In this document: one piece after another, positions 15,062 to 31,776 of the stretch
Position numbering within the stretch: the stretch's first letter is position 1
How the letters are laid out: every line of letters begins with the position of its first letter
Source of the DNA: Pseudomonadota bacterium
GTDB taxonomy: Bacteria > Pseudomonadota > Alphaproteobacteria > SMXQ01
Direction of reading: 5' to 3'
Assembly: GCA_022566265.1 (NCBI GenBank)
Contig: JADFJG010000008.1
Location: 15,006 to 49,027 of the forward strand
DNA length: 34,022 nt
Position numbers and translations under genes: made by a program
Notes under the pieces: model-generated
What the model was told of the DNA's origin: nothing
The model's input: the letters and a program-made list of their open reading frames with translations, nothing else
Database searches by the model: none

Positions 15062-15616
15062 TTACCCGGCGGGCTTGCCCGGCGCGGCCTGGCCTTTATC
15101 TGGTATGGCCAGGGACGACGCCGCTGTCACCGATTCCGGAGAGGACTTGCCGAGCGCCTTGGCCAGCGCCTCCGCCTTCGATGTATCGGCGGGCTTGGCC
15201 TCGGCGGGCTTGGCCTCGGCGGGCTTCGCCTCGGCGCCCTTGCGCACGCTCTCGAGATGCCGGCAATTGCCCTCGAGATAGGCGCCCGATTCGACGATCA
15301 AGAGCGAATGGATAATGTCGCCGACGACCTTGGCGGTGGGGCCAAGCTCGACCTTTTTGGCCTTGATTTGGCCGCTGATCGATCCATGGATGCGGACCGT
15401 TTCGGCCTCGACCTCGCCGTTGATCGTCGCGCTTTCGCCTATGGTCAGGGTCCGGCTTCTGACATTGCCATCGATAATGCCGTCGACCTGGACGTCGCCG
15501 TCACTGATCAGGTTGCCGACGATCCTGAGTGAGGCACTGATGATCGTAGGCACGTGCTGATCCTGGTTAACCTTCGCCGGCGTGGGCGCCACGTCTTTGC
15601 TATCCTTTGAAAACAT
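15062..15616 (-). CDS. Bactofilin
   Basis: A cytoskeletal polymer-forming protein (bactofilin, formerly DUF583) that commonly recruits peptidoglycan enzymes. It has 184 aa. The beta-helical core lies at about residues 25-120 with the periodic pattern GNLISDGDVQVDGIIDGNV, GEVEAETVRIHGSISG and VVGDIIHS. The tail after residue 128 is Ala/Lys/Pro-rich and contains EAKPA repeats. Its start overlaps the end of the upstream M23 peptidase gene by 17 bp, a coupling seen in other bacteria where bactofilin and an M23 endopeptidase shape the cell together. Confidence 0.93.
   Translation of the reverse strand: MFSKDSKDVAPTPAKVNQDQHVPTIISASLRIVGNLISDGDVQVDGIIDGNVRSRTLTIGESATINGEVEAETVRIHGSISGQIKAKKVELGPTAKVVGDIIHSLLIVESGAYLEGNCRHLESVRKGAEAKPAEAKPAEAKPADTSKAEALAKALGKSSPESVTAASSLAIPDKGQAAPGKPAG
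15186..15245 (-). repeat. 15-bp tandem repeats encoding EAKPA units in bactofilin
   Basis: Three near-perfect 15-bp units (15186-15230) and one degenerate unit (15231-15245) encode the C-terminal EAKPA repeats. The period is a multiple of three, so tail length can vary without a frameshift. Confidence 0.85.
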
Positions 15617-16946
15617 ATTTTCCTGCCTGCATAAACTTCAGTGGATCATAGGGTTTACCGTTGACGAGAATTTCGTAGTGGATGTGCGCCCCGGTGGTGC
15701 GGCCGGTGTTTCCCATCAGACCGATCTTCTGACGAAATCCGACTTTCTGTCCGCGGCGCGCGAGGATCTTGTACAAATGGCCGTAACGGGTACGGATGCC
15801 GAGGCCGTGATCGATCACGATCATCCGGCCGTAGGTGGGGTGGCGGCTGACCGACACCACGGTGCCGGCCGCGGTGCTGAACACCGGAGACTTCTTCACG
15901 CCGGCCAGATCGACCCCATAATGCATGCCCCATTTCTTGTTGACCGGATCCCGCCGCTTGCCGAACCGGCTCGATACGTAATAGTGGTCCGACGGCGAGG
16001 TCAGGGGCAAGGTCTTGAGAAGCCCTTTCAACCCGTTCCAGCGATCCATGTGACCGTTGAGCACGGCGAGCCGGGAATCGAACTCATCCTCGTTCTTATT
16101 CGCTTCGGGCTTGAAAGCGATGAAGGGGCCGCCTTGACCGGCCGAGTTGTCGAAAACGCCGCCAAGAAGCTGGTCGGCATCGAGCCCGGTCATGGCGATC
16201 AATTCCTTGAACTCGTCGATTCTGTCGACGGTCCGCTCGGTCAGACGGTCGAGAAACTGTTGCCGCGAGGCCTGGAGATCGACGAGACTTTTCTCCAGAT
16301 CCTTGACGCGCCCTTCCAGCCGATCTTGTTCCTCGATCAACTCGCTACGGTCGAGGGTGGCGTCCTCCAGCCTGGATTCGAGCGATTCCACGGCGCCACC
16401 CAGGCGAATGTTGCGCTTGACCGCGCCATCGAGGGTCACCCTGAGCCGGCCGAGATCCCTATTGGTCACCTGACGCGACGCCCGCGCGACTTTGCGGTCC
16501 TTCTCCGATTCTCCGAGCTTGACCTTGACCGAACCGAGCCGCTTCCTGAGACGGATCCGCTGGGCGAAAAGGCCGCGAATTTCGGCGTGTTTCGCCTCGA
16601 GGTCTTGGTCGAGGTTGCCGATCCGCGCCACCGACCGGGAGACCTCGTCGCGCAAGGCGGCGAAGGCCCTTTCACCGGCGTCGATCTCCCTGTCCTTGGC
16701 GGCAATCACGCTCCGCTGATAGACGGCCGCGACATTGGTGAATACGAACCACCCGCCGATGAGCAATAACACGCCGGCGGCCACCAACTGGGCACGCGGT
16801 GTCACGATGAAGAACTTAAAGCGCTCGTCCCGGCGCAGGATCACCTGCCGTTCCATGAACAGGCGCGCAAATAGCCGCTTGACGGGAATGAAGGGAGCGA
16901 TACCCAGACGCAATAAAAACGCCAAGCCTGATCTGAGTATACGCAC
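15600..16946 (-). CDS. M23 (LytM-type) peptidoglycan endopeptidase with coiled coil
   Basis: Predicted to cut peptide cross-links in the periplasm. The GTG start at 16946 follows GGGAGG. The 448-aa protein has a cytoplasmic N-terminus, one membrane segment at about 52-72, and a long coiled coil (about 78-235). The C-terminal M23 domain follows at about 325-440. The zinc and catalytic residues are present: His342 and Asp346 in MHYGVDLAG, His390 in RYGHLY and His421/His423 in GAHIHYE. The membrane-coiled-coil-M23 layout resembles alphaproteobacterial LmdC-like proteins. Bactofilin follows with a 17-bp overlap, suggesting they act at the same site in elongation or curvature. Confidence 0.92.
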   Translation of the reverse strand: MRILRSGLAFLLRLGIAPFIPVKRLFARLFMERQVILRRDERFKFFIVTPRAQLVAAGVLLLIGGWFVFTNVAAVYQRSVIAAKDREIDAGERAFAALRDEVSRSVARIGNLDQDLEAKHAEIRGLFAQRIRLRKRLGSVKVKLGESEKDRKVARASRQVTNRDLGRLRVTLDGAVKRNIRLGGAVESLESRLEDATLDRSELIEEQDRLEGRVKDLEKSLVDLQASRQQFLDRLTERTVDRIDEFKELIAMTGLDADQLLGGVFDNSAGQGGPFIAFKPEANKNEDEFDSRLAVLNGHMDRWNGLKGLLKTLPLTSPSDHYYVSSRFGKRRDPVNKKWGMHYGVDLAGVKKSPVFSTAAGTVVSVSRHPTYGRMIVIDHGLGIRTRYGHLYKILARRGQKVGFRQKIGLMGNTGRTTGAHIHYEILVNGKPYDPLKFMQAGKYVFKG

Positions 16947-18678: not shown

Positions 18679-18889
18679 CGCCCGCCTCGGCGCATCCGGG
18701 GTCGGCGGCGTCATCGGCCTCCACGGGATGATGCCGGCCTTCGTCGGCATGGACCCGCGGACCGGCATCGCGCGCTATTCCGAGGACTTCCTGTTCATGT
18801 GGGACGGCATCGATCTCATCACCGCTATCCTGGCGCTGTTCGCGGTGCCGGAGATGATCGCCTTGAGTGTCAAGGGCGGCTCGTCCTGG
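18679..18889 (+). pseudogene. Decayed TctA (tripartite tricarboxylate transporter) fragment
   Basis: A remnant of about 70 residues of a TTT large membrane subunit, lacking start and both ends. Its segments FVGMDPRTGIARYSEDFLFM and WDGIDLITAILALFAVPEMI align with the middle of the intact TctA of this window (IGSDPQTGTLRW, YLWDGLPLVPVTIGLFALPE). The fragment begins directly after the stop of the second cupin gene, so the N-terminal half is deleted. It is cut on the right by the element at 18890-19133. It was probably once the membrane partner of the TctC encoded at 19937-21172. Confidence 0.8.
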
Positions 18890-19474: not shown

Positions 19475-19774
19475 ATGAGCATAAGGAATATTCTACTGGC
19501 TACGGCACTCGGCAGCGTCCTCGCCTTTGGACTGACGACGATTACGGTCGATACCGCCTTTGCGGGAGAGGTCAAAGGCAAGGTCACCAAGACCGAACGC
19601 GAAGGCCGCGTCGTGACGATCGGTGGCACCAAGGTCAAGATCAGCGGCTCGCGCACCGAGGTCACCATCGGCGGCAAGGAAGCCGACCGCGAGGAGATCA
19701 AGGTGGGCATGAGCTGCACCGCCGTGGTGGCGCCGCGCAAAGGCAAGGACGAGGCCAAGACGGTCAAGTGCTGA
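19475..19774 (+). CDS. Small secreted protein made of the TctC C-terminal module
   Basis: A 99-aa protein with a clear signal peptide (hydrophobic 6-22, cleavage likely after AFA at residue 30), leaving about 69 residues in the periplasm. The mature part contains KGKVTKTEREGRVVTIGG, SGSRTEVTIGGKEADREE, VGMSC and a final Cys. The same pattern forms the C-termini of both TctC proteins of this window. The two cysteines (GMSC and the last residue) could form a disulfide. The beta-rich, Gly-turn pattern resembles OB-fold-like DUF5666-type domains, but that is an analogy. The ATG follows AAAGGGA. A rho-independent terminator ends the transcript at 19807-19831. Confidence 0.8.
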   Translation: MSIRNILLATALGSVLAFGLTTITVDTAFAGEVKGKVTKTEREGRVVTIGGTKVKISGSRTEVTIGGKEADREEIKVGMSCTAVVAPRKGKDEAKTVKC

Positions 19775-19806
19775 TCGCTTAGGTCTTAACGATATCTTTG
19801 GGGGCG

Positions 19807-19831
19807 GGGGCGAAACCTCGCCCCTTTTTTT
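19807..19831 (+). terminator. Rho-independent terminator after the small secreted protein gene
   Basis: GGGGCG (19807-19812), a 6-base loop, CGCCCC (19819-19824) and a run of seven T. Confidence 0.85.
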
Positions 19832-19846
19832 GGCGCCGGACGCGGC

Positions 19847-19864
19847 TTGACAAACGGCCGTCAA
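19847..19864 (+). promoter_or_regulatory. Consensus -35 box within an inverted repeat upstream of tctC
   Basis: TTGACAAACGGCCGTCAA contains a perfect -35 hexamer (TTGACA) and is an inverted repeat (TTGAC/GTCAA) around the palindrome ACGGCCGT. No good -10 box stands at the right distance, so a promoter needing an activator, or an operator, is possible. It lies 73 bp before the tctC ATG. Confidence 0.35.
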
Positions 19865-19936
19865 CCCGAGACCCTTGTGCCAACGAGCAAGGGGCCGAGA
19901 ACCCGTTTGCCGCATCGAAACACGGAGGACCGAAAC

Positions 19937-21172
19937 ATGCGCACCAGATCAATTCTGCTTTCGCTCGGCCTGGCCAGTCTTAGCGCGGTCGTGCTGAGCG
20001 CTCCCGCCCTTGCCGCTTCGGGCGCCGCGTACTTCAAGGGCAAGACCATCACCTACATCGTCGCCACCGGCGCCGGCGGCGGTTACGATTTCTATGGACG
20101 GCTGATCTCCGAATACATGGAACGGGCGTTGCCGGGTTCGACCATCATCGTCAAGAACGTGCCGGGCGCCGGGCACATAATCGGCGCCAGCCAGATCTAC
20201 AATTCCAAGGCCAACGGCCTCACCATCGGCACCTTCAATACCGGCTTGATCTTTCAGCAGGTCATCGGCCGCAAGGGCATCAAGTTCGACCTCGCCAAGA
20301 TGTCGTGGATCGGCAAGGCCTCGTCCGACCCCAGGGTGTTGATGGCGAGCGTCACATCCGAGGTCAAGACCCTTGCCGACCTGCGCCGCGAGACGGCGAC
20401 CGTAATGTCGACCTCCGGCGTCGGCAGTTCCGGCTACAACGACACCATGATGCTGACCAAGGTGTTGAACTGGAACATCAAGTTGGTGCCGGGCTACCGT
20501 GGCATGGACTCGGAGTTGGCCATGCGCCGGGGCGAGATCGACGCCGCCGTCAGCTCGCGGAGTTCCGCCGATCTGTTCGTCAAGAACGGTTTTGGCCGCA
20601 TCATCTTCCAGGTCGGCGGCACGCCGCCCGAGGGCGTGCCGTTGCTCAAGAGTTTGGTCAAGGGCGACGACGCCCGATCGATCGCCGCCCTCATCGGATC
20701 CCAGGGCGAGTTGGCGCGGCTGACCGCCGGACCGCCCGGTATCTCCGCCGACCGCCTGGCGGCGCTACGGTCCGCCTACCGGAAGGCCCTGACCGATCCC
20801 GAGTTTATCGCCAAGGCCAAGAAAGCCAGCCGGCCCGTCGATCCGCTGTTCGGAGAGGATGTGGCGAAGAAGATCAAGGCCGCCCTTCAGCAATCGCCGG
20901 AGACGGTGGCGCTGGTGAGGAAAATCCTCAACGTCAAGCCGCCATCGATCAAGGTCGGCCCCATCGCCATCGAGGTCCAGAAAAAAGGCCGCTTCATCGT
21001 CTTCGCCGGGCCCGACGGCAAGAAGATCAAGTCCAAGGTCTCGGGTTCGCGGACCAAGATCAAGATCGCCGGCAAGAAGGCCAACCGTAAGAAACTGAAG
21101 ACCGGCATGAAGTGCAAGATCGACTACAAGCCGGGCGGACGCAACGAGCCCAAGACGCTCGACTGCGAGTAA
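19937..21172 (+). CDS. TctC-family periplasmic binding protein with C-terminal Cys module (1)
   Basis: Extracytoplasmic solute-binding protein of the tripartite tricarboxylate transporter family, which hands a carboxylate to TctA/TctB. The ATG at 19937 follows GGAGG and starts a signal peptide ending in ALA (about residue 27). The mature protein begins with the family pattern AYFKGKTITYIVATGAGGGY, then PGAGHIIGASQIYN and FNTGLI. The binding-protein part ends near residue 340; typical TctC proteins end there. The extra 70 residues (342-411) repeat the module of the 99-aa protein upstream, including SGSRTKIKIAGKKANRKK, GMKC and a terminal CE. No intact TctA/B lies next to it, only a TctA remnant. 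Its own terminator is at 21198-21237. Confidence 0.9.
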   Translation: MRTRSILLSLGLASLSAVVLSAPALAASGAAYFKGKTITYIVATGAGGGYDFYGRLISEYMERALPGSTIIVKNVPGAGHIIGASQIYNSKANGLTIGTFNTGLIFQQVIGRKGIKFDLAKMSWIGKASSDPRVLMASVTSEVKTLADLRRETATVMSTSGVGSSGYNDTMMLTKVLNWNIKLVPGYRGMDSELAMRRGEIDAAVSSRSSADLFVKNGFGRIIFQVGGTPPEGVPLLKSLVKGDDARSIAALIGSQGELARLTAGPPGISADRLAALRSAYRKALTDPEFIAKAKKASRPVDPLFGEDVAKKIKAALQQSPETVALVRKILNVKPPSIKVGPIAIEVQKKGRFIVFAGPDGKKIKSKVSGSRTKIKIAGKKANRKKLKTGMKCKIDYKPGGRNEPKTLDCE

Positions 21173-21272: not shown

Positions 21273-22346
21273 ATGACCCTGATCCTGTCGAATGACGATG
21301 TCGAACGCCTGCTGAGCATGACGGAATGCCTCGACGCGCTGGAAGACGCCTATGTCGAGCTCGCCGAGGGGCGCGGGGTGACGCGGGTGCGTTCCGACTG
21401 CCTCACCCCGACCGGGCGCGAGGGCGCCGTTTACGGCCTCAAATCGATGGACGGGGTGTTGCCCAAGCAGGGGATCGGCGCCGTCCGCATCGGCTCGGAT
21501 ATGGTCACCTGGCCGCGGCGGGACGGCAAGCTGCGCCGGGTCAAGGTACCGGCGGCGCCGGGCGGCCGCTATGTCGGGCTGGTGCTGTTGTTCAGCACCG
21601 AGAACTGCGAGCCCCTGGCGATCTTCCCCGACGGGGTGATGCAACGCATCCGCGTCGGCGCCACCAATGGGCTCGCCGCCAAATACCTGGCGCGCGAGGA
21701 CGCCAAGCGCGTCGGTATCCTGGGGTCGGGCTGGCAGGCGGGCACCCAGCTCACCGCCATCTGCGCGGTCCGCGACATCGAGACCATCCGCTGCTTCAGC
21801 CCCAACGCCGAGAACCGCGCCGCCTTCTCGACCGAAATGAGCGCCACGCTCGGTGTCGACGTGACGCCTGTCGATACCCCGGAAGCGGCGGTCGAGGGCG
21901 CCGATGTGGTGATGTGCGCCTCCAGTTCCATCGAAAACATCTTCTTCGAGCCGTGGGTCGAGCCGGGCGTGCATCTGAGCTCGATCAAGCGCCCGGAAAT
22001 CGAGACCAAGGCGATCCAGAGGGCCGACAAGGTGGTGATCCACACCCGTGACGCGACGCCCATGCACATCGCCACCAAGGGTCTCGAGCTGCCGGAACGC
22101 ACCGAGGGCCAGGGCTGGGCCATGACCGAGGCGGTCGACATGGCCAAGCTTACGACCCTGCCGGAGATCATCGCCGGCAAGGCCCAGGGCCGGACCTCGG
22201 ACGAAGAGGTGACCTGCTTCCTGAACAACCTCGGCATGGGCTTCCAGTTCGCCGCCGCCGGCGCCGTCGTCTACCGCAAGGCCAAGGAAACCGGCGCCGG
22301 GCGGGACCTGCCGACCGACTGGTTCACCGAGGACGTCCACCCCTGA
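21273..22346 (+). CDS. Ornithine cyclodeaminase/mu-crystallin family protein
   Basis: NAD(P)-dependent enzyme of 357 aa. Family members deaminate and cyclise ornithine, reduce cyclic imino acids or oxidise amino acids. The N-terminal substrate domain contains VYGLKSMDG (53-61) and AVRIGSDMVTW (70-80). The Rossmann domain starts at KRVGILGSGWQAGTQLTAI (about 145-163), with the GxGxxA-type dinucleotide loop at 151-156. The C-terminal part contains EEVTCFLNNLGMG. The ATG has a very strong AGGGGAGG ribosome site. It stands after the tctC terminator, so it may have its own promoter. The exact substrate cannot be told. Confidence 0.85.
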   Translation: MTLILSNDDVERLLSMTECLDALEDAYVELAEGRGVTRVRSDCLTPTGREGAVYGLKSMDGVLPKQGIGAVRIGSDMVTWPRRDGKLRRVKVPAAPGGRYVGLVLLFSTENCEPLAIFPDGVMQRIRVGATNGLAAKYLAREDAKRVGILGSGWQAGTQLTAICAVRDIETIRCFSPNAENRAAFSTEMSATLGVDVTPVDTPEAAVEGADVVMCASSSIENIFFEPWVEPGVHLSSIKRPEIETKAIQRADKVVIHTRDATPMHIATKGLELPERTEGQGWAMTEAVDMAKLTTLPEIIAGKAQGRTSDEEVTCFLNNLGMGFQFAAAGAVVYRKAKETGAGRDLPTDWFTEDVHP

Positions 22347-22429: not shown

Positions 22430-22918
22430 CTAGATCGAGGGGATCACTCCCTTGAGCGCTGGAATGATGTCGCCGATCACGGTCTGCGGCCACGGCAGCG
22501 CCAGCAAATAGTCGAACAGGCCCCAGGAGAACAGCACCAGCCCGACCGCGCACGACATGGTGAGTTTCCAGGGTTCGTTGCCCTCGACCCGCATATAGAG
22601 GATGACGAACATGAACACCCCGGGCAACATGCCGAACACCGCCGCCAGCGCGACGAAGCCCCACAGCCAGGCCAGATAGATGACGGCGCGGGTCAACATG
22701 ACCTTGGTCTCGATCCCTTCGTCCTGGACCGTGAGATCGAGGTGCATGGACTCGACGATGTCTTCCTTGTCGCCGTTGGCGGCCCGGTGATCGCGGACCT
22801 CGCGGAATATGACAACGGCCATGAAGAGGGCGAACGCGGCATAGATCGCGAAGCCCAACAACTCTTGTCTGGTCATGTCTTCGAGGAAGGTGTCTTCCAA
22901 GAGAAGGTCTAAGTCCAT
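22430..22918 (-). CDS. TctB-family small transporter subunit
   Basis: Small membrane subunit of a tripartite tricarboxylate transporter, 162 aa. Hydrophobic segments lie at about 20-38, 76-94, 96-112 and 122-148, the four-helix layout of TctB. The N-terminal 15 residues are acidic. AAGGAAGG precedes the ATG. It starts 38 bp after tctA and is cotranscribed with it. The sequence of TctB is poorly conserved, so the call rests on size, topology and position beside tctA. Confidence 0.8.
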   Translation of the reverse strand: MDLDLLLEDTFLEDMTRQELLGFAIYAAFALFMAVVIFREVRDHRAANGDKEDIVESMHLDLTVQDEGIETKVMLTRAVIYLAWLWGFVALAAVFGMLPGVFMFVILYMRVEGNEPWKLTMSCAVGLVLFSWGLFDYLLALPWPQTVIGDIIPALKGVIPSI

Positions 22919-22956
22919 GGCGTCCTTCCTTTACTGCGTTCGTTCCCGGCCATCGG

Positions 22957-24666
22957 TCAGCGCTTGTCGCGCCCGCCGAAGGTGAAATTGAGCAGGCTGA
23001 TGGTGGTGACGGAAATGGTGAAGACGCCAACGATCATAGGCACGATCTTGGCATCCAGATTCCACTCCGAGGCCTGCATCATCATCGTCGTCAACAGGAT
23101 GAGAAATCCAATATAGAACGCGGTGGTGACGTCGAACCGGGGGGTTGTCAGGCCGGCGAACATGCCGCTGAACCCGCCGGACTTCCTGACCTCGCGGACG
23201 AAGGGACGGAACAGGCCCCACATCGCCCCCACGAACACCACCGCGACGACGGGGCGCAGCAGCCAGTCGGTGCCGTAACGCCCGACCGAGATGAACAGGT
23301 AGCGCTCGACGATATCGCCGAGCACGACGCCGAGGATCAGGGGTGGCCGCGGCCAGCCCAGGCGCTTCATGGCCCAGCCGATGACGCCGAACAGCAACAG
23401 CGTGTAAATGTCGCCCCACTGGCGGGTGCCCTGGAAAGCGCCGACGAACACCACGGTCAGGATCAGCGGCATGATGACGGCGTAGCGGACCAGGGCGACC
23501 TTGGCGAACTGGTCGGAGAACGCGAAGCACAGCCCGGCGCCGAGGATGTTGGCCAGCGCGACGCTCCACACCATGGTGTAGGTCACGTCGAGGTTCTTGG
23601 TCAGCATGTCGGGGCCGGGAACCAGGCCGTGGATCAGGAAGGCGCCCAGCAGGATCGCCATCGAGGCGCTGCCCGGCACGCCGAAGGCGATGGTCGGCAC
23701 CAGCGCGCCGCCCTCCTTGGCGTTATTGGCGGCCTCGGACGCGATGACGCCGCGGATATCGCCCTTGCCGAAAGTCTCGGAGGCGCCCTTCTCGGTCCGC
23801 GCCGCGTGGCCATAGGCGATCCAGTCGATGATCGCGGCGCCGATACCGGGGATCGCGCCCAGCGACGAGCCGAGCAAGGCGCAACGGAGCACCAGCCACC
23901 AGTGGGTGAACGTATCGCGCACGCCCTGCCACTGGCCCTTGCGCACATCGACCTTCGCTTCATCGCCGGTGGCGATGGAACGGCGCGAGATCGCCATGTC
24001 GGCGAGCTCGGGCAGGGCGAAGAGGCCGATCGTCACCGGCACCAGGGGCAGGCCATCCCAGAGATAGAGCGAATCGAGCGTCCAGCGCAGGGTACCGGTC
24101 TGCGGGTCGGAGCCGATCATGGCGACGAGCAATCCGAACCCGGCCGCGCCGAGGCCGCGCAAGGGCGCGCGGCCGCTCAAGACCGCGACCATGGAAAGAC
24201 CGAAGACCGAAAAGGCGAGAAGCTCCGGCGATCCCAGGTACAGCATGACCGGCCTGAGGATGGGGATGGAGACGGCGAGCAACAGGGCGCCGAAGACGCC
24301 GCCGATCAGCGACGCGCTGTAGGCCGCCCCGAAGGCGCGCCCCGCCTGTCCCTGGCGCGCCAGCGGATGGCCGTCGAGGATCGTCGCCGCCGATCCCGCC
24401 GTGCCGGGAACCCCGAACAGCACCGCCGGAATGGTGTCCGACGTGGTGGTGACCGAACCCATGCCGAGCAGGAAGGCAAAGGCGGTGTAGGGGTCCATGT
24501 CGAAAGTGAAGGGCAGCAACAGCGCCATGCCGACGATGCCGCCAAGGCCCGGAATGACCCCCAGCATGAGGCCGATCATCACCCCCGAGGCGAGGAAGAA
24601 GAGGCGTGTCGGATCGGCGATGATGAGGAGGGCTTGGCCCGCCTCATGCAACATATCAACTTCCAT
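22957..24666 (-). CDS. TctA-family large transporter subunit
   Basis: Large membrane subunit that carries carboxylates across the inner membrane using an ion gradient. The signature GVIPGLGGIVGMALLLPFTF (36-55) is present, then LLGMGSVTTTSDTIPAVLFG and the second-half repeat IPGIGAAIIDWIAYGHA. These are followed by KGDIRGVIASEAANNAKEGG and IAFGVPGSASMAILLGA. About eleven to twelve membrane helices are evident. At 569 aa it is some 60-70 residues longer than usual TctA, with two extra hydrophobic segments at the C-terminus. It is followed by tctB and preceded by ubiX; its binding protein is most likely the tctC at 27541-28824. Confidence 0.93.
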   Translation of the reverse strand: MEVDMLHEAGQALLIIADPTRLFFLASGVMIGLMLGVIPGLGGIVGMALLLPFTFDMDPYTAFAFLLGMGSVTTTSDTIPAVLFGVPGTAGSAATILDGHPLARQGQAGRAFGAAYSASLIGGVFGALLLAVSIPILRPVMLYLGSPELLAFSVFGLSMVAVLSGRAPLRGLGAAGFGLLVAMIGSDPQTGTLRWTLDSLYLWDGLPLVPVTIGLFALPELADMAISRRSIATGDEAKVDVRKGQWQGVRDTFTHWWLVLRCALLGSSLGAIPGIGAAIIDWIAYGHAARTEKGASETFGKGDIRGVIASEAANNAKEGGALVPTIAFGVPGSASMAILLGAFLIHGLVPGPDMLTKNLDVTYTMVWSVALANILGAGLCFAFSDQFAKVALVRYAVIMPLILTVVFVGAFQGTRQWGDIYTLLLFGVIGWAMKRLGWPRPPLILGVVLGDIVERYLFISVGRYGTDWLLRPVVAVVFVGAMWGLFRPFVREVRKSGGFSGMFAGLTTPRFDVTTAFYIGFLILLTTMMMQASEWNLDAKIVPMIVGVFTISVTTISLLNFTFGGRDKR

Positions 24667-24724
24667 CAGTACCTACCCTGTTGACCGGCTCTGCGGCCGG
24701 ATTGTTATGCTTTTTCAATCTTTG

Positions 24725-24755
24725 GCCCGGGCACGCCTTTGGCGTGTCGCCGGGC
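24725..24755. repeat. Inverted repeat in the ubiX-tctA gap
   Basis: GCCCGG...CACGCC-TTT-GGCGTG...CCGGGC forms a hairpin with a small asymmetric bulge. There is no T-run after it in the transcribed (minus) direction, so it is more likely a processing or stability element between ubiX and tctA than a terminator. Confidence 0.45.
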
Positions 24756-24760
24756 TCGAT

Positions 24761-25354
24761 CTAAACTTCCACCTCGGCCGGCGCCGTCTCCTTCCAGCGC
24801 CGGAAAAGATCGTGGGGGACGTCGAACAGGTCGAGCGTCTTGCCCACCGTCTGGTTGACGATATCGTCGATGGTTTTCGGCCTGTGATAGTAAGCGGGGA
24901 CCGGCGGCATGACAATCGCGCCGAATTGGGCGGCCCGGACCATCAGCTGGAGGTGCCCGAGATGCAGCGGCGTCTCCCGCACCAGCAACACCACCCGGCG
25001 CCTTTCCTTGAGACAGACATCGGCGGCGCGGACGATCAGGTTCTCGTCATAGGAGTTGACGATGCCCGACAGGGTCTTGACCGAACACGGCGCCACCACC
25101 ATGCCGGCGGTGCGGAACGAGCCGCTGGACAGCGACGCCCCGATATCCTTGTGGCTATGCACCACGTGGGCCAGGGCCTTGACCTCGGATACCTTCCAGT
25201 CGGTCTCATCGACGATGGTCTGGCCGGCGGCGGGCGATAGGATGAGGTGAATCTCGACATCATCGACGGCGCCCAGCGCCTCCATCATCCGGATGCCGTA
25301 GATCGCCCCGGAAGCCCCGGACATACCCACGATTATTCGCCGCTTCCGCTTCAG
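24761..25354 (-). CDS. ubiX: UbiX-family flavin prenyltransferase, probable CTG start
   Basis: Makes prenylated FMN, the cofactor of UbiD decarboxylases. Family boxes are intact: RIIVGMSGASGAIYGIRMME (FMN site), the APCSVKTLSGI loop, and RETPLHLGHLQLM followed by GAIVMPPVPAYYHRP. The first canonical start (GTG at 25330) would cut into the first beta strand. A CTG at 25354 lies five bases after GGGAGG and gives the normal UbiX N-terminus (KRKRRIIVGMSG), preceded by an in-frame stop. I therefore use CTG, giving 197 aa. It lies downstream of the ThDP gene and upstream of tctA, and serves the UbiD encoded at 30187-31674. Confidence 0.88.
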   Translation of the reverse strand: MKRKRRIIVGMSGASGAIYGIRMMEALGAVDDVEIHLILSPAAGQTIVDETDWKVSEVKALAHVVHSHKDIGASLSSGSFRTAGMVVAPCSVKTLSGIVNSYDENLIVRAADVCLKERRRVVLLVRETPLHLGHLQLMVRAAQFGAIVMPPVPAYYHRPKTIDDIVNQTVGKTLDLFDVPHDLFRRWKETAPAEVEV

Positions 25355-25509
25355 CGCCGCCTCCCGTCAATCTTTTGCGCGGGGCCGGTCGGAACGCATC
25401 GCGCCCGTCTCCGGCCTCCTTCTCGAGGAACAGGCGATGAAAACAAATATTTCATCATCCGTCCAGTCCCGAGACCTTGCCTCTTTTGGCCCTCACCTTA
25501 CTTTGGCCC

Positions 25510-27330
25510 TCACCTTCTTTCGGTAATGGTGTCAAGCAGCGCCGGCTGCCCGGCCTTGACCCGCGCGATGGCGCGCTTGAGCGCCGGTCCGACGTCCTTG
25601 GCGTGATCGATCGGCCCTTCGGCATACCAGCCGAAGGAGCGGGCGAGGCCGGCGAAATCCGGGTCGGGATCGCTGAGGTCCATGCCGATATAGGCGCGCT
25701 CCACCGGGGTTTTACGCTGCTCCGCCATGCGGATCTGGTGCTCCCAGTCGTTGTAATACGCCCGGTTGTTGTACATCACCACCAGCATCGGGATGTTGTG
25801 CTTGGCGGCGACCCAAAGGGCGCCGGCGTCGAACATCAAATCGCCGTCGGGTTGGAAGTCGACGACGAGGCGGCCCTTGTCCCGATGCGCGAGAGCGACA
25901 CCGAGAGAGATGCCGATCTGGGTCGAGGTGCCGAGCGACTTGCCGGCATGGCGGTAGTGCTTGTCGAAATCCCACAATTTCCGCGACCAGTCCCCGAGCG
26001 TCCCGGCGGTGAGCACCCAGTCCTCGTCCTTGATCGCCTCCCACACCTCGGCGGCGAGAACGGGCAGGCGAAGGGGGCGGTCGTCGCGGCCCTTGCGGGC
26101 CTCCTTGGCCCAGCGTTGCCGCGCCGCCTGGTGCCGCTTGGCGATCCGCGCGCCGCGCCGCTCGATCCGGGTCTTGATCGCGGCATTGCGGTTGAGAAGG
26201 GCGCGGCAGCGCTTGGTCAGCTCCGGAATGGCCAGGTCGGTGTCGGCCATGATCCTGAGATCGGCGTCGAGGAGGCGTTGGTAATCGAGCGCCCAGGCGC
26301 TGATCTCCAAATCGCCGAAGCCGATATCGACGAAGCGACAGTTTTTCGGGGTGATCCTCTCGACCTTGCGGGTGGTCGAGGAAAGCTTGGTCGTCGGCCG
26401 CTCCCAGTCGCGGACATCGAGGCCGACGATGAGATCGGCGTCGGTGAAGACATCGTCCAACATGCTCACGTTCAGTGGATGGCAGCCGGGAAAATTGAGC
26501 CTGGTGTTGAGGTCGTACACCGGCGCCTGGACGCATTCGGCGAGCTTGACCAGGGCATCGAAGCCGGCCTCGCCGCGGCCGGAAAACTCGGCCAGCAACA
26601 CCGGCCTCTTGGCCGCCACCAGCATCTCCGCCGCTTGATCCAGGGCGGCCGGGTCCGGGGCCATGGGCGTCGGCACGCGGGCGGCGTCCTTGGCCGGCAG
26701 CGCCACCTTGTGATCCAGTGGCGCCTCCTGGAGCCAGGCGTCGTAGCACATATAGATCGGTCCCTGGGGCTGGGTCATCATCACCGAAAAGGCGCGGGCG
26801 AAGGCCTCGGGGACGCCGTCGACCACCGAGGGCTGGTAGTCCCATTTGGTGTAGTCGCGGATCTGCGACCCCTGGACGTTGGCGGAATGGATCCAGTCGA
26901 TCTTGGGGCGCCGCTTGGTCTCGTTCATCGGCCCCGTCGCGCCGATGATGAAGATCGGGGCGCGGTCGATATAGGCGTAATAGATCGCCATGTTGGAGTG
27001 GATCAGGCCGACCAGATTGTGGACGATGGCCACCATCGGCTTGCCCGACGCCTTGGCATAGCCGTGGGCGACCTGGACCGCCGTCTCCTCGTGCTGGCAC
27101 AGCATCATCTGGGGATAGTTCTGGCCGTAATTGACCAGCGAATCATGGAGCCCCCGGTAACTGGCGCCGGGATTCAGCGCCGCATAGGGCATGTCGTAGC
27201 GATGCAGCATGTCGACGATGACGTCGGCCCCCCAGCGGCGCTTGGCGGGGACCACCTTCGGCCTCTTCGGCGTCCTGATCGGTTTGCGAAAGGTCTTGGC
27301 CTTCCTCCCGGCACTCTTCTTGACAGCCAT
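25510..27330 (-). CDS. ThDP-dependent enzyme, acetolactate synthase/benzoylformate decarboxylase-like
   Basis: A 606-aa thiamine-diphosphate enzyme that should act on a 2-oxo acid. The pyrimidine domain carries the catalytic Glu81 in LCQHEETAVQVAHGYAKASG. A central domain follows, then the ThDP-binding domain with FQPDGDLMFDAG and VVMYNNRAYYNDW, the GDG...NN signature with Pro in place of the first Gly. The first 33 residues are very basic (about 15 Lys/Arg) and are not part of the fold. AAAGGGG precedes the ATG. Because it sits with ubiX, ubiD and TTT genes, a decarboxylase or C-C lyase step in the same pathway is more likely than branched-chain amino acid synthesis. Confidence 0.85.
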   Translation of the reverse strand: MAVKKSAGRKAKTFRKPIRTPKRPKVVPAKRRWGADVIVDMLHRYDMPYAALNPGASYRGLHDSLVNYGQNYPQMMLCQHEETAVQVAHGYAKASGKPMVAIVHNLVGLIHSNMAIYYAYIDRAPIFIIGATGPMNETKRRPKIDWIHSANVQGSQIRDYTKWDYQPSVVDGVPEAFARAFSVMMTQPQGPIYMCYDAWLQEAPLDHKVALPAKDAARVPTPMAPDPAALDQAAEMLVAAKRPVLLAEFSGRGEAGFDALVKLAECVQAPVYDLNTRLNFPGCHPLNVSMLDDVFTDADLIVGLDVRDWERPTTKLSSTTRKVERITPKNCRFVDIGFGDLEISAWALDYQRLLDADLRIMADTDLAIPELTKRCRALLNRNAAIKTRIERRGARIAKRHQAARQRWAKEARKGRDDRPLRLPVLAAEVWEAIKDEDWVLTAGTLGDWSRKLWDFDKHYRHAGKSLGTSTQIGISLGVALAHRDKGRLVVDFQPDGDLMFDAGALWVAAKHNIPMLVVMYNNRAYYNDWEHQIRMAEQRKTPVERAYIGMDLSDPDPDFAGLARSFGWYAEGPIDHAKDVGPALKRAIARVKAGQPALLDTITERR

Positions 27331-27464
27331 TCGTTCCCCTTTAACCGACGGTTTAATTCCCTGGCGCTGGCAGTGGAACCCGGGCCCGCCAACAGACCGA
27401 ACTTATCCGGTGGAGATGGCCTCAAGGTTTCTAGATATCGCGGGATGCGCGGGGCCCTGGCGGC

Positions 27465-27518
27465 AAAATAAGGCCGCGGTCCCGGGTTCGATCACGAACC
27501 GCACCCGGGACCGCGGCC
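27465..27518 (-). terminator. Strong rho-independent terminator after tctC (2)
   Basis: GGCCGCGGTCCCGGGT (27472-27487) pairs perfectly over 16 bp with 27503-27518. The loop contains a further TTCG/CGAA pair. On the minus strand the stem is followed by TTATTTT (27465-27471). It separates tctC (2) from the ThDP gene. Confidence 0.85.
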
Positions 27519-27540
27519 CCGCGAGGTTAAGCCCTCCCGT

Positions 27541-28824
27541 TTATTCGCAGTCGATCTTCTTGGCGGCGGAAGCCTGGAAGGTGAACTCGCACTTCATGCC
27601 CACCTTGAGGTTCTTCCGCTTGGCCTTCTTGCCGCCGATGGAGACCTTGGTGCGCCGGCCGCTGACGCTCAGCTTGCCCTTCCTGCCGCCGCCCTTGTAG
27701 GAGACGCGCCGGCCCTTGCGCTGGATCTTGGTGATCGTCCCCTTGACCGTCTCGATGGGAATGACGACCTTGGTGATCTTGATCTTCCCGGTCTTTTCCG
27801 CCGCTTCCTTGGCCGCCTCGACGAGGTCCTTGGGCGAGGCGTAGAGCGCGGCGATGAGCTGTTTGATCTTCTCGCCGCTGATCGGCGCGATCTCCAGCTT
27901 CTGCTTCTTGGCGTCGGCGAGGAAATCCGCATCCTTCATCGTCGCCATGAACGCCGCCTGCAGGGCCTTGACCCGGTCCGCCGGAACGCCCGGTGGTGCC
28001 GCGAACGGGCGGCCCCATGCCTGACGGGCGAAGACGAGCTCGAGAACCTTGCGGTCCTTGTCGGTCTTGGCCAGATCCATCACGAACGGCACGTCCGGCA
28101 GGTCCGGATGCTTCGCCGTCGACATCTGCAACAGGATCTGAACCTTCTTCCCCGTCAGCCATTGGGGGAAGCGCGACTTGAGCGACGACCAGGAGTAACC
28201 GCAGCGGCCCTGGAGCTCGCCGCGCTCTATCGCCAGGTTGATGTCATTGCCGCCGGGATAGCCGGTCACCAGCCGGAGCTTGGTGCCAAGGATGTTGTTG
28301 AGCACCTTGGGAAAAGTGTCGGTATCGGCGCCCGGTCCGGTGCCGCCGACGATCATCGGCATGGTCAGGAAGTCGTCCAAGGTCTGGATCGGCGATTCGT
28401 GCCAGGCGATGCAGACGCTGACCTCGTTATTGGCGCTGCCGAGCCAGGTGAACTTGGAAGGATCGAACCTTGCCTTCTCGTTGCCGAACAGCGGCTCCAT
28501 GACCATGCCCCGGCCGAAGGTGGCGATGACGGTGCCGTCCTTGGGCAGGGAGTTGTAAAGCTCGTTGGTCAGCCTGAGGCTGCCGGCGCCCGGTTTGTTC
28601 TTGGCGACGACTTTCGGGTTGCCCGGTATATGCCTGCCGATCACCCGGCCGATGGTCCGGGCGTAGGTGTCGTAGCCGCCACCAGCGCTGTAGCCGATAT
28701 AAAGGGTAATGGTCTTACCCTTGTAGAAATCCGCCACCGATTCGGCCTGGACCGGCGGCGGCAAAGCCGAGCCGATCAGGACGCCGATGGCCCCTAAACC
28801 GATGAGGTAACGTAGCGCTTTCAT
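27541..28824 (-). CDS. TctC-family periplasmic binding protein with C-terminal Cys module (2)
   Basis: Solute-binding protein of the TTT family, 427 aa. Its signal peptide ends in VQA (about residue 27). The mature start is DFYKGKTITLYIGYSAGGGY, followed by NKPGAGSLRLTNELYN, GGTGPGADTDTFPKVLN and PPGVPADRVKALQAAF. The binding-protein part ends near residue 350. Residues 357-427 repeat the module of the 99-aa secreted protein: VKGTITKIQRKGRRVSY, SGRRTKVSIGGKKAKRKN, LKVGMKC and a terminal CE. It is only distantly similar to the other TctC in the binding region, whereas the module is clearly alike. A 230-bp AT-rich upstream region and a strong terminator make it a separate unit. It probably feeds the intact TctA/TctB. 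Confidence 0.92.
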   Translation of the reverse strand: MKALRYLIGLGAIGVLIGSALPPPVQAESVADFYKGKTITLYIGYSAGGGYDTYARTIGRVIGRHIPGNPKVVAKNKPGAGSLRLTNELYNSLPKDGTVIATFGRGMVMEPLFGNEKARFDPSKFTWLGSANNEVSVCIAWHESPIQTLDDFLTMPMIVGGTGPGADTDTFPKVLNNILGTKLRLVTGYPGGNDINLAIERGELQGRCGYSWSSLKSRFPQWLTGKKVQILLQMSTAKHPDLPDVPFVMDLAKTDKDRKVLELVFARQAWGRPFAAPPGVPADRVKALQAAFMATMKDADFLADAKKQKLEIAPISGEKIKQLIAALYASPKDLVEAAKEAAEKTGKIKITKVVIPIETVKGTITKIQRKGRRVSYKGGGRKGKLSVSGRRTKVSIGGKKAKRKNLKVGMKCEFTFQASAAKKIDCE

Positions 28825-29054
28825 GTTTCGCTCTCCCCGCGATGTATTGTCCGTTGAACAGGCCCGGCGCTCGCGATGAATACGGCGCCAGTTTATTGTT
28901 TCACTATATTTAGACCCTTATAACAGCATCTTGTGCTTGCCGACAGTATTTTATGATATTTCCAGGCTTTCGGCCCGCTTCGATTAACACTTTTGTTCTA
29001 CGGCCGACCGCGATTCGCGCCGGCCCCGCCACCGGTCCCTTAGAGCATTATCCG
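28825..29054 (-). promoter_or_regulatory. AT-rich upstream region of tctC (2)
   Basis: The segment 28885-28970 is much richer in A/T than its surroundings. On the minus strand it contains several -10-like hexamers (TTATAA at about 28918, TATAGT at about 28904), but none has a good -35 partner at 16-18 bp. It very probably holds the tctC promoter, perhaps activator-dependent. GGGGAGAG before the ATG is the ribosome site. No gene was seen here. Confidence 0.4.
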
Positions 29055-29573
29055 CTAAAGCGGCAGCGGCCGGTTCTGCACCAGCGCCACCAGGACCGCC
29101 GCGATCACGCCGGATAACGGCGGCAACAGGACCGACGCCGAAAGCCGCATCACGGCGAACCGCGCCCCCAACATCGGCACCTCGAAAAGGAACACCCGGT
29201 GGATACCCAGGACCGACCACGACGTGAGGAAAGCCACCAGTTGCGGGATGTCGGCGCCGGCCTTGTAGAGGACCACGGCGACGGGAAAGGAGATGATGCC
29301 GCCGCCGGGAATGAAGCCGCCGAGGAGCGAGGCGATGAGGATGCCGCGAAACCCCGAATCGCCGCCGATCCACTCGGCGACCAGCTCCTTCGGCAAAATC
29401 TGGCTGGCGAACCCGGCGATCAGCAGCGCCATGACGACCCTAGGCGTGTTGGCGGCGATGATATTGACGCCGACGCGAAGCCCGAGACGGTGCTTCTTTT
29501 CCGGCTGGCGATAGGCCACCACCACAAGGCCCGCGACCATCAACCACAAGACGATAGCGGTCGGACCCACCAC
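29055..29573 (-). CDS. Half-size permease (UPF0718/DUF318-like), second of a pair
   Basis: A 172-aa membrane protein resembling one half of the ArsP/DUF318 (COG0701) permeases. It has about five hydrophobic segments. The box WIGGDSGFRGILIASLLGG is followed by FIPGGGIISFPVAV, the typical repeat signature. The GTG start directly abuts the TGA of the preceding permease gene, implying strict translational coupling. The same boxes occur in that neighbour, so the two products are likely the two halves of one transporter. The cargo is unknown. Confidence 0.75.
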   Translation of the reverse strand: MVGPTAIVLWLMVAGLVVVAYRQPEKKHRLGLRVGVNIIAANTPRVVMALLIAGFASQILPKELVAEWIGGDSGFRGILIASLLGGFIPGGGIISFPVAVVLYKAGADIPQLVAFLTSWSVLGIHRVFLFEVPMLGARFAVMRLSASVLLPPLSGVIAAVLVALVQNRPLPL

Positions 29574-30146
29574 TCAGGCGTCCTCCGCCTTGGCGCCGAT
29601 GGGGCCGAACGGCAGCCGGCGGGCGATCAACCCGGCGATGATCGGCAGCGCCAGGCCCGCGAGCAGGCGCAGGAAGGCGAATTCGGTGCCCATCAGCGGG
29701 ATTTCCCAGACCAGCATGCGCTGCAGGCCCAACAGCGACCAGGCGGTGAGATAGGCGACCAGCGCCCCGCGGTCGGCGCCGGAGATATGGAAGGCGACGA
29801 CCAGGGGAAAGGACGTCATCGGCCCACCCGGCGTCAGGATGCCGGCGAGCCCGGCGATGCAGATTCCCTTGAGCCCCGACTGCCCGCCGACCCATCTGGC
29901 GACGAGGGCCCGCGACAACAGCACCTGGACGAGACCCGCCATCAACATCGCCGCGGCCATGCGCGGAAGCAGGACCATGAACAGATCGAGATCACCGGCA
30001 AGCGCTTCGATGAAGGCGTCCTCGCCCTTGATCCGGTAGCAAAGGCCGCCGGCGAGGACGGCAAGGGCGGCGAACACCCAGAACGAGCGCCCGAACGGTT
30101 TGCCCTTGCCCCAACTCTCGGGCAGTCTGGTCTCGGGCAAGCTCAT
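29574..30146 (-). CDS. Half-size permease (UPF0718/DUF318-like), first of a pair
   Basis: A 190-aa membrane protein; the ATG at 30146 (MSLPETRLPE) is chosen because upstream codons look like non-coding Arg/Ser-rich translation. The box WVGGQSGLKGICIAGLAGIL, then TPGGPMTSFPLVVAF, parallels the neighbour's WIGGDSGFRGILIA and PGGGIISFPVAV, showing duplication. Both also share the later L.AWS.LG..R...(W/F)E.P pattern. It begins 40 bp after the ubiD stop and abuts the next permease gene, so the order ubiD-permease-permease is likely one operon. Export or uptake of the UbiD substrate or product is a reasonable guess. Confidence 0.75.
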   Translation of the reverse strand: MSLPETRLPESWGKGKPFGRSFWVFAALAVLAGGLCYRIKGEDAFIEALAGDLDLFMVLLPRMAAAMLMAGLVQVLLSRALVARWVGGQSGLKGICIAGLAGILTPGGPMTSFPLVVAFHISGADRGALVAYLTAWSLLGLQRMLVWEIPLMGTEFAFLRLLAGLALPIIAGLIARRLPFGPIGAKAEDA

Positions 30147-30186
30147 GGCTAAAGGGGCACGGCGGCGGCGCGCCCCGGCGCGGCGG

Positions 30187-31674
30187 TCAATCCAGCAGGT
30201 CTTTCCACTTGTCGTAAGTCTTCTGCTTGAGATCGGGACTGGATTCCGCCACCGGCGGGAACTCGTCCTTCCATTCATACGGGCGGCAGGCGTCGACGAT
30301 GGCCCGGGAGTTGAAGTTGTCGCCGACTCTCTTGCGCGGATCGAGCGCCCCGCTCCAGGCCTTGCGGATGATGTCGATATCCTCATCCGGGTCGCAGCGC
30401 GTCGCCATCGCCCAGGTCACGTCCCACAGGTTCGAGGGATCGATATCGTCATCGACGACGATGACCCAGCGGCCGAGATAGTTGCCGGCGTGGCAGCTGG
30501 CCGCCAGTAGCGCCGCCTGCTTGGCGTGGCCGGGATAGGCCTGGGTGATGGAGATGACGTTGAACAGGCGGCCGCCGCCGGGCTCGTGGCACCATACGCC
30601 CTTGACGCCGGGAAGGCCGGCGCTCTCGACCTCGTCCCAGATCATCGCCGACTTGATGACGCATTTGGAAAGCGAATAGTCGGACGGCGGGCGGCCCGGC
30701 CGGGCCATGGTGATGATCGGGTTGTTGCGCCAATAGATGCGCTGGATGTGGACCACCGGGTCCTCGCGCACGGACGAGGCGTAATAGCCGGTCCACTCGC
30801 CGAACGGGCCCTCGGGCAGCAAGTCGTGCTCGCGGATCTCGCCCTCGATGACGATCTCGGCGTTGGCCGGGATCGGCAGGCCGTGGACCTCGCTCTCGAT
30901 GATGTCGAAGGGCATGCCGCGATGGCCGCCGGCGTAGGCGAACTCGGAAACGCCGTAATTGACCTCGTTGCCGGCGGCCAGGAACAACAGCGGATCGTGG
31001 CCGACGCTGATCGCCACCGGACAGGGCTTGCCCTGCTTGAAATATTTTTCGCGGATGAGCCGGCCGTGCTTGCCGGGCGACATCCACAGGCCCAGCGTCT
31101 TCTTGTCGTGGATCATCACCCGGTAGGTGCCGATATTGACCCAATCGGTATCCGGGTCCTTCATGATCACCAGATCGCCGGTGCCGACGTAGCGCCCGCC
31201 GTCGAGCTCATGGAGGAACGGCACCGGGAACTTGTAGATATCGACGTCCTCGTCGCGATCGATGTTCTCCAGCACGGCGCCGGAGGTGACGGTGCGGGAG
31301 GGGATCGGCTCGAAGTTCTTCATGCGGTCGCGATAGGACTGGACGACGTCGAGGCCCTTGTCCGCATCGGGCAGGCCGAGGGTGACGGCGAGCCGCTTGG
31401 GCGAATTGGTCATGCCCGAAAGGACGCGGAAGCCCTCCTCGTAGCCCGGAATGTTGTCGAACAGCAGACAGGGCGGGTTCTCGGGCGAATTGTGATAGAT
31501 CATCTCGGCGATGGCGCCGATCTCGAGGTTCCAGTCGGCGCCGTCGATCTTCTTCATCTGGCCGGTGCGCTCGATGCGCTCGAGCCAGTCCCGCAAGTCG
31601 GTGTGGGGCTCGTTGTACCCGGCGTAGCCTGGGGCGCGCTTCCCTGACCCGGTGTCTTTTTCTATCGTGCTCAT
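30187..31674 (-). CDS. UbiD-family prenyl-FMN-dependent (de)carboxylase
   Basis: Reversible decarboxylase using prenylated FMN. The ATG at 31674 follows GGGAAG; the frame is open further up through a non-coding tandem repeat, so the longer version is unlikely. It has 495 aa, normal for the family. Cofactor and Mn/K ligands are visible: Asn180 and Arg185 in WVNIGTYRVM, His203 in GKHGRLI and Glu244 in GVSEFAYAGG. The catalytic segment is LLPEGPFGEWTGYY (285-298). Substrates of this family are aromatic or alpha,beta-unsaturated carboxylic acids; which one applies here is unknown. A LysR gene is divergent, and a promoter lies at 31748-31776. UbiX is encoded in the same island, as usual for catabolic UbiDs. 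Confidence 0.93.
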   Translation of the reverse strand: MSTIEKDTGSGKRAPGYAGYNEPHTDLRDWLERIERTGQMKKIDGADWNLEIGAIAEMIYHNSPENPPCLLFDNIPGYEEGFRVLSGMTNSPKRLAVTLGLPDADKGLDVVQSYRDRMKNFEPIPSRTVTSGAVLENIDRDEDVDIYKFPVPFLHELDGGRYVGTGDLVIMKDPDTDWVNIGTYRVMIHDKKTLGLWMSPGKHGRLIREKYFKQGKPCPVAISVGHDPLLFLAAGNEVNYGVSEFAYAGGHRGMPFDIIESEVHGLPIPANAEIVIEGEIREHDLLPEGPFGEWTGYYASSVREDPVVHIQRIYWRNNPIITMARPGRPPSDYSLSKCVIKSAMIWDEVESAGLPGVKGVWCHEPGGGRLFNVISITQAYPGHAKQAALLAASCHAGNYLGRWVIVVDDDIDPSNLWDVTWAMATRCDPDEDIDIIRKAWSGALDPRKRVGDNFNSRAIVDACRPYEWKDEFPPVAESSPDLKQKTYDKWKDLLD

Positions 31675-31700
31675 CACTCTTCCCGTTCGATCGACAATTA

Positions 31701-31736
31701 AAGTCCCTGGCCTTGGGGAAGTCCCTGGCCTCGGGA
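31701..31736. repeat. Tandem 18-bp repeat in the ubiD leader
   Basis: Two adjacent 18-bp copies (31701-31718 and 31719-31736) match at 16 of 18 positions. They lie between the predicted ubiD promoter and the ATG, so they would be transcribed. They might bind a regulator or shape the leader RNA. Confidence 0.75.
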
Positions 31737-31747
31737 CACTGATGCTT

Positions 31748-31776
31748 AGAATACGCAGAACCCGGCGCACCGGCAA
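31748..31776 (-). promoter_or_regulatory. Sigma70-type promoter for ubiD-permease operon
   Basis: Minus-strand TTGCCG (31771-31776) and TATTCT (31748-31753) with exactly 17 bp between. Transcription would start near 31741, giving a leader of about 67 nt that contains the tandem repeat. Confidence 0.6.

Follow-up and report, generated by a model that had tools for sequence, protein, structure and literature searches.

Gram-negative solute-binding proteins (SBPs) are usually pictured as two-lobed proteins that diffuse freely in the periplasm. DUF5666, BOF (YgiW) and other periplasmic OB families are small exported OB domains, and the metal ligands of the periplasmic chaperone CusF are His, Trp and Met. 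The TctC/Bug proteins (PF03401) are the SBPs of TTT systems; mature TctC has a mean length of ~300 residues, paralog expansion is known in Bordetella, and TctC is known to be overabundant relative to TctA, the reason for dozens of TctCs per few TctA/TctB pairs being open (PMC5812351). The literature searched, which lies largely outside subscription journals, describes no C-terminal extension of TctC, no poly-Lys tail of an SBP and no OB-tailed SBP.

The window considered here, the whole analysed stretch of 34,022 nucleotides of alphaproteobacterial DNA, encodes a ~70-residue module with a Cys pair three times, once free and twice at the C-terminus of a TctC. The free form is a 99 aa secreted protein (19475..19774, + strand) recognized from its translation, homolog searches, an AlphaFold2 (AF2) model of residues 31-99 and a conserved operon position; the predicted signal peptide spans residues ~1-30 and the mature module residues 31-99 (19565..19771, +), where Cys81 and Cys99 correspond to C51 and C69 of the module in two alignments. 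TctC1 is a 411 aa SBP (19937..21172, +; PF03401 E 3.1e-9) ending in the OB module (20951..21169, +; profile E 3.6e-32 and alignment), and TctC2 is a 427 aa SBP (27541..28824, −; PF03401 E 6.7e-6) with its module at 27544..27765 (−; profile E 4.5e-30 and alignment). With a Pfam cut-off of 27 bits for PF03401, TctC1 scores 37.2 and TctC2 26.3; the core of TctC2 is predicted to have the two-lobed TctC/Bug fold, as its full-length AF2 model matches TctC structures at E 2.5e-16. An earlier note on this DNA gave these frames and lengths exactly, and the motif it described is present in all three window copies, with the last Cys as the last or next-to-last residue.

By sequence comparison the module is a genuine homologous domain. 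With the 99 aa protein as the sole query, a search of the whole genome recovers six places besides the query itself (E 2e-7 to 3e-11), each within a frame of 426-497 aa: the TctC tails of the window, at E 1.6e-9 and 6.9e-8, and four further frames; a profile search finds eight copies in the same genome (best E 9e-37), including the TctC1 and TctC2 tails at a significant E of 4e-32 and 5e-30 (rounded) and an eighth copy found by profile only. Alignment of the three window copies with four more from this genome has 13 invariant columns. The genome also holds 16 PF03401 matches, eight of which are proteins of ordinary size (frames of 321-368 aa) without the module; the tail is therefore an addition and not part of the normal TctC fold, which explains the lengths of 411 and 427 aa as the earlier note had proposed, and the reading that all TctCs carry the module is ruled out. 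Searches of Pfam and NCBIfam with the module return no family match, only scattered hits at chance level, and a PDB sequence search with the module profile returns no match. As judged from these searches, the module is a known fold with no described sequence family, a new OB-fold domain family; an entry for it would annotate hundreds of proteins.

Modeling of module residues 31-99 of the free protein by AF2 (40-row alignment) confidently predicts a small barrel, with a pLDDT of 89.7. Foldseek ranks CusF and PilY2 as its nearest solved folds (TMq 0.63-0.70), cold-shock and S1-type OB folds follow lower in the list, and none of the matches reaches E 1e-3. A small β-barrel whose top structural matches are OB folds, at a TMq of at most 0.70, supports the OB-like secreted domain that had been proposed from the sequence. 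At least two Cys are found in 214 of 214 complete modules (exactly two in 210); in the model this pair, C51 and C69, is divided between the strands of the last hairpin (50-58 and 61-68), whose register sets the two residues opposite each other at its base, and the full-length TctC2 model (pLDDT 92.7) places C385 and C399 in the same register. The universal pair and its facing geometry support the earlier proposal of closure by a disulfide, which is predicted to pin the end of the barrel. The suggested comparison with DUF5666 finds no sequence support, as a Pfam scan of 40 module sequences with E values allowed up to 1 does not return this family; BOF (YgiW) and the other periplasmic OB families likewise match 0 of 40, and membership of ExtJ (NF040942) was rejected at 15.5 bits against a curated cut-off of 52.5. 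In the alignment T31, G37, K38, G48 and M49 are strongly conserved, and R42 and K46 are near-invariant. The module has a mean net charge of +13.8 in 71 residues on TctCs; free modules are moderately basic (+3 to +16), and a basic character is shared by the TctC cores of the same genomes (+16.5 per 325 residues).

With the Cu(I)/Ag(I) chaperone CusF among the best structural neighbors, and free and fused forms side by side in a manner that recalls CusF and its fusions, the module could be thought to capture a metal, anion or substrate and hand it to the SBP, the free form being a diffusible chaperone for the same ligand. This is considered improbable: the alignment has no conserved His or Trp column, its only invariant Met stands directly before the Cys strand, the geometry of the Cys pair suits a disulfide, and the substrates of the receptors are presumably diverse. 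Membership of the CusF family itself (PF11604, Pfam CusF_Ec) was rejected, as the profile finds a single one of 40 members, at E 0.17, and the set of His/Trp/Met ligands is not conserved.

Carriers of the module are all SBPs where a core can be assigned. The 236 non-redundant module ORFs comprise 191 with a TctC core, 23 with an ABC-type SBP core (Pfam SBP_bac_1/6/8 among those scanned) and 11 free forms with a signal peptide; the remainder are contig-edge fragments or short unassigned frames. Contig-edge matches and frames with stops were excluded from the count of free forms, and a further candidate (G236) was rejected since its frame continues upstream into TctC sequence. The OB-tailed ABC SBPs adjoin BPD_transp_1 permeases and, in one locus, also an ABC ATPase. 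In the first census the ORF ends 0-1 residues past the module in 134 of 143 complete ORFs. Two modules can stand in tandem at the C-terminus, as in two TctCs of genome G003 (L150 and L151, G003:C17:611-613 kb) that adjoin a tctA. Only SBP cores are seen among classifiable module ORFs with a long N-terminal part, and not the many unrelated exported families expected of a general C-terminal sorting tag such as the T9SS CTD, which was rejected. The earlier note had described the module as standing alone or fused to TctC; both forms are found, but the description is too narrow since the module also ends ABC-type SBPs and can be doubled, and a TctC-only module is thereby ruled out.

TctC paralogs without the module were sampled with a core profile that is blind to their ends (n=40; L232-L251, L275-L294, L100 and L102), and 31 of the 40 have at least five Lys in their last 16 residues; about one-fifth show no clear lysine tail, and in ten a short Cys-pair stretch lies just before the lysines, e.g. 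..KGAVFKCKALAKNKKMCKKKKKKKKKKK. At L179 (G010:C65) two adjacent sister TctC genes have cores that are closely similar up to ..TGKVEMAK; one then ends in the OB module, its sister in GAKKKKKKKKAEE. Across 102 TctC cores placed in a FastTree phylogeny, in which long branches were flagged, the tail types alternate, with 12 changes for OB, at least five of them forced by supported branches; poly-Lys is also present on a few TctCs of other clades. A DNA pattern in G003 finds seven in-frame K5-tailed proteins, all TctC-like, six of them matching the TctC profile and one (L259) judged by eye. K/R tails occur on only five of 126 genes in module-bearing stretches, which were chosen around SBPs; all five are SBP-like, three on profile evidence and two (in L273) from their size and terminus. 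One of the K/R-tailed proteins, an ABC-type SBP_bac_6 protein in an ABC operon (L271, 2749-3837, −), ends in GPKKRKKRRKK, and basic tails thus extend beyond TctC; the OB module in turn is not a TctC-specific device, because it also ends ABC-type SBPs, can be doubled and is replaced by poly-Lys in sister TctCs. The class-wide control of the poly-Lys pattern is confounded by GC content, since the reversed control also yields background in AT-rich genomes; G000, with 8 forward matches and a control of 0/0, nevertheless stands apart from large genomes, most of which give 0.

A structural cap against proteolysis, or a relic inherited with the expanded receptor clade and having no separate function, would account for a module that is always at the extreme C-terminus, forms a well-ordered unit together with the core in the prediction and sits mostly on paralogs of one expanded clade in the core tree. 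Such an explanation is unlikely; free secreted copies are retained in a conserved operon position, unrelated ABC SBPs carry the module, no complete copy has lost the Cys pair, and replacement by poly-Lys is hard to explain for a cap.

The free form is encoded within a tctABC operon in four genomes (G003, G005, G009 and G010), in the order tctA, tctB, free module (one to three copies) and OB-tailed tctC, followed by an ocd-family gene where the sequence extends far enough. The tctB-like gene, seen in G005, G009 and G010, is assigned by position and membrane-like sequence; Pfam gives no match for that of G005. This conserved operon ties the free form to the fused form genetically, a link that supports this part of the earlier interpretation. 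The window keeps the free gene, TctC1 and ocd in operon order, the last an ornithine cyclodeaminase/mu-crystallin family gene (21273..22346, +; Pfam OCD_Mu_crystall E 2.4e-40) with the same neighbor in L176. Upstream of the free module lies a 60-codon tctA remnant (18704..18883, +) that is 82% identical (E 1e-26) to the TctA encoded by the intact L180 operon, with no further tctA at that place, and a same-genus locus (L008) has a tctB-like stretch upstream of the free gene. Given the remnant and the shared gene order, the window is judged to contain a decayed version of the conserved operon that has retained the free module and the tailed receptor. Three tandem free OB-module genes lie between tctB and tctC in L172 (1535-2926) and L176 (2024-3425), and some free copies (also in L145 and L180) have an extra NVC..GxCD Cys pair.

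Such an arrangement agrees with a specific docking or oligomerization domain, in which fused modules would bind each other, the free module or membrane subunits, the free form would be a fourth TTT subunit, and SBPs would be assembled into complexes with a few shared permeases. The free module stands between tctB and tctC in three genera besides the decayed window copy, occurs in up to three tandem copies, and has invariant residues beyond those that give charge; however, ABC-type SBPs, whose permeases are unrelated, carry the same module at the C-terminus, and a specific interface would not easily allow the poly-Lys replacement seen in sister proteins. This explanation is possible but rather doubtful.

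Elsewhere in the window, TctC2, a TPP enzyme, a UbiX-like flavoprotein, TctA (22957..24666, −; Pfam TctA E 4e-132), TctB (22430..22918, −; Pfam TctB E 1.8e-7) and a UbiD decarboxylase are all encoded on one strand (22430-31776, −); the gene set looks like one for uptake and (de)carboxylation of an aromatic or unsaturated acid. A DUF5930 and M23 peptidase protein (15600-16946, −) is probably a cell-wall hydrolase and has no relation to the OB module.

The module is concentrated in the family of the window's genome, which consists mostly of uncultured alphaproteobacteria and in which dozens of binding proteins per genome end in the module or in lysines. There are eight copies in the window's genome and 7-68 per genome in 11 of 11 genomes of the family, which are also all the sampled genomes of the order; TctA genes number 7-21 per genome, mostly fewer than the module copies. 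Across the class the module is rare, with a match in 11 of 385 genomes: five sampled members of the family, a second family with four genomes of 2-4 copies each, and two single matches, one a truncated TctC in another family and one a spurious match with stops. These class-wide counts are lower bounds, as 15 candidates were scored per genome. Contigs from 84,980 species, scanned with a sequence pattern, yield 45 module loci, mostly in metagenome-assembled Alphaproteobacteria, plus Litoricola and unnamed Gammaproteobacteria; none of the plasmid records searched encodes the module.

The reading preferred here, at a probability of about 0.4, is that periplasmic SBPs are tethered or docked through the module, which would serve as their cationic C-terminal tag; it is rated most likely because the carriers are all periplasmic SBPs, of any transporter class, and both kinds of tail are strongly cationic at the C-terminus. 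With the Cys pair as a disulfide pinning the end of the barrel, the basic surface of the module, or a poly-Lys tail, would hold the receptor on an anionic partner in the envelope, candidates for which are inner-membrane lipid head groups or acidic permease loops; a small number of permeases would thus have many competing SBPs kept nearby, in the way that Gram-positive SBPs are retained by a lipid anchor. The free form, encoded between tctB and tctC, would be an accessory subunit able to occupy these sites or to bridge them. Tethering would fit the presence of one module on two unrelated SBP classes (191 TctC and 23 ABC-type) beside their own permease genes, its strictly C-terminal placement, the tandem doubling and the OB/poly-Lys swap in L179. 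The mean charge of +13.8, the poly-Lys on 31 of 40 module-less TctCs and the restriction of K/R tails to SBP-like neighbors point the same way, as do the tctA-tctB-free-tctC operon and the smaller number of TctA genes in most genomes. Against it stand the one-fifth of module-less TctCs without a clear lysine tail and the high salt of seawater, which would weaken electrostatics. The charge is perhaps not the selected trait, since TctC cores are basic too and free modules only moderately so, and the conserved T31, G37, K38, G48 and M49 suggest a defined partner rather than plain charge.

More tentatively, the two tails could form a non-lipid C-terminal addressing code for SBPs, in which paralogs could exchange a lysine tail for a disulfide-pinned cationic OB domain and which TTT and ABC receptors would share, with the free OB protein acting in trans at the same site. 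It may be that the module holds or docks receptors in a manner not seen before. A lineage that carries a basic C-terminal element in two interchangeable forms on most of a large TctC clade provides natural experiments, the L179 pair being one, on how SBPs are held near permeases or shared among them.

The carriers resemble the TctC/Bug SBPs of TTT (PF03401) in core fold (4x9t, BugD, TphC), signal peptide, tctA/tctB neighborhood and large paralog expansion; they differ from ordinary TctC/Bug proteins in having an OB module built from 70-100 additional residues at the C-terminus, or a lysine-rich tail, and in weak PF03401 scores. The periplasmic Cu(I)/Ag(I) chaperones CusF and SilF are also small periplasmic OB barrels (TM 0.63-0.68), whereas the module has a conserved Cys pair, sits on SBPs and is without the conserved His/Trp ligands. 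PilY2 of Pseudomonas aeruginosa (3tdq) is a small secreted OB-like barrel (TM 0.69-0.70), but identity is 15% and its pilus biogenesis context is absent around the module. The likeness to lipid-anchored Gram-positive SBPs is one of analogy only and lies in a shared hypothetical role, that of placing SBPs near permeases; the element considered here is a C-terminal domain or poly-Lys tail, whereas theirs is an N-terminal lipid.
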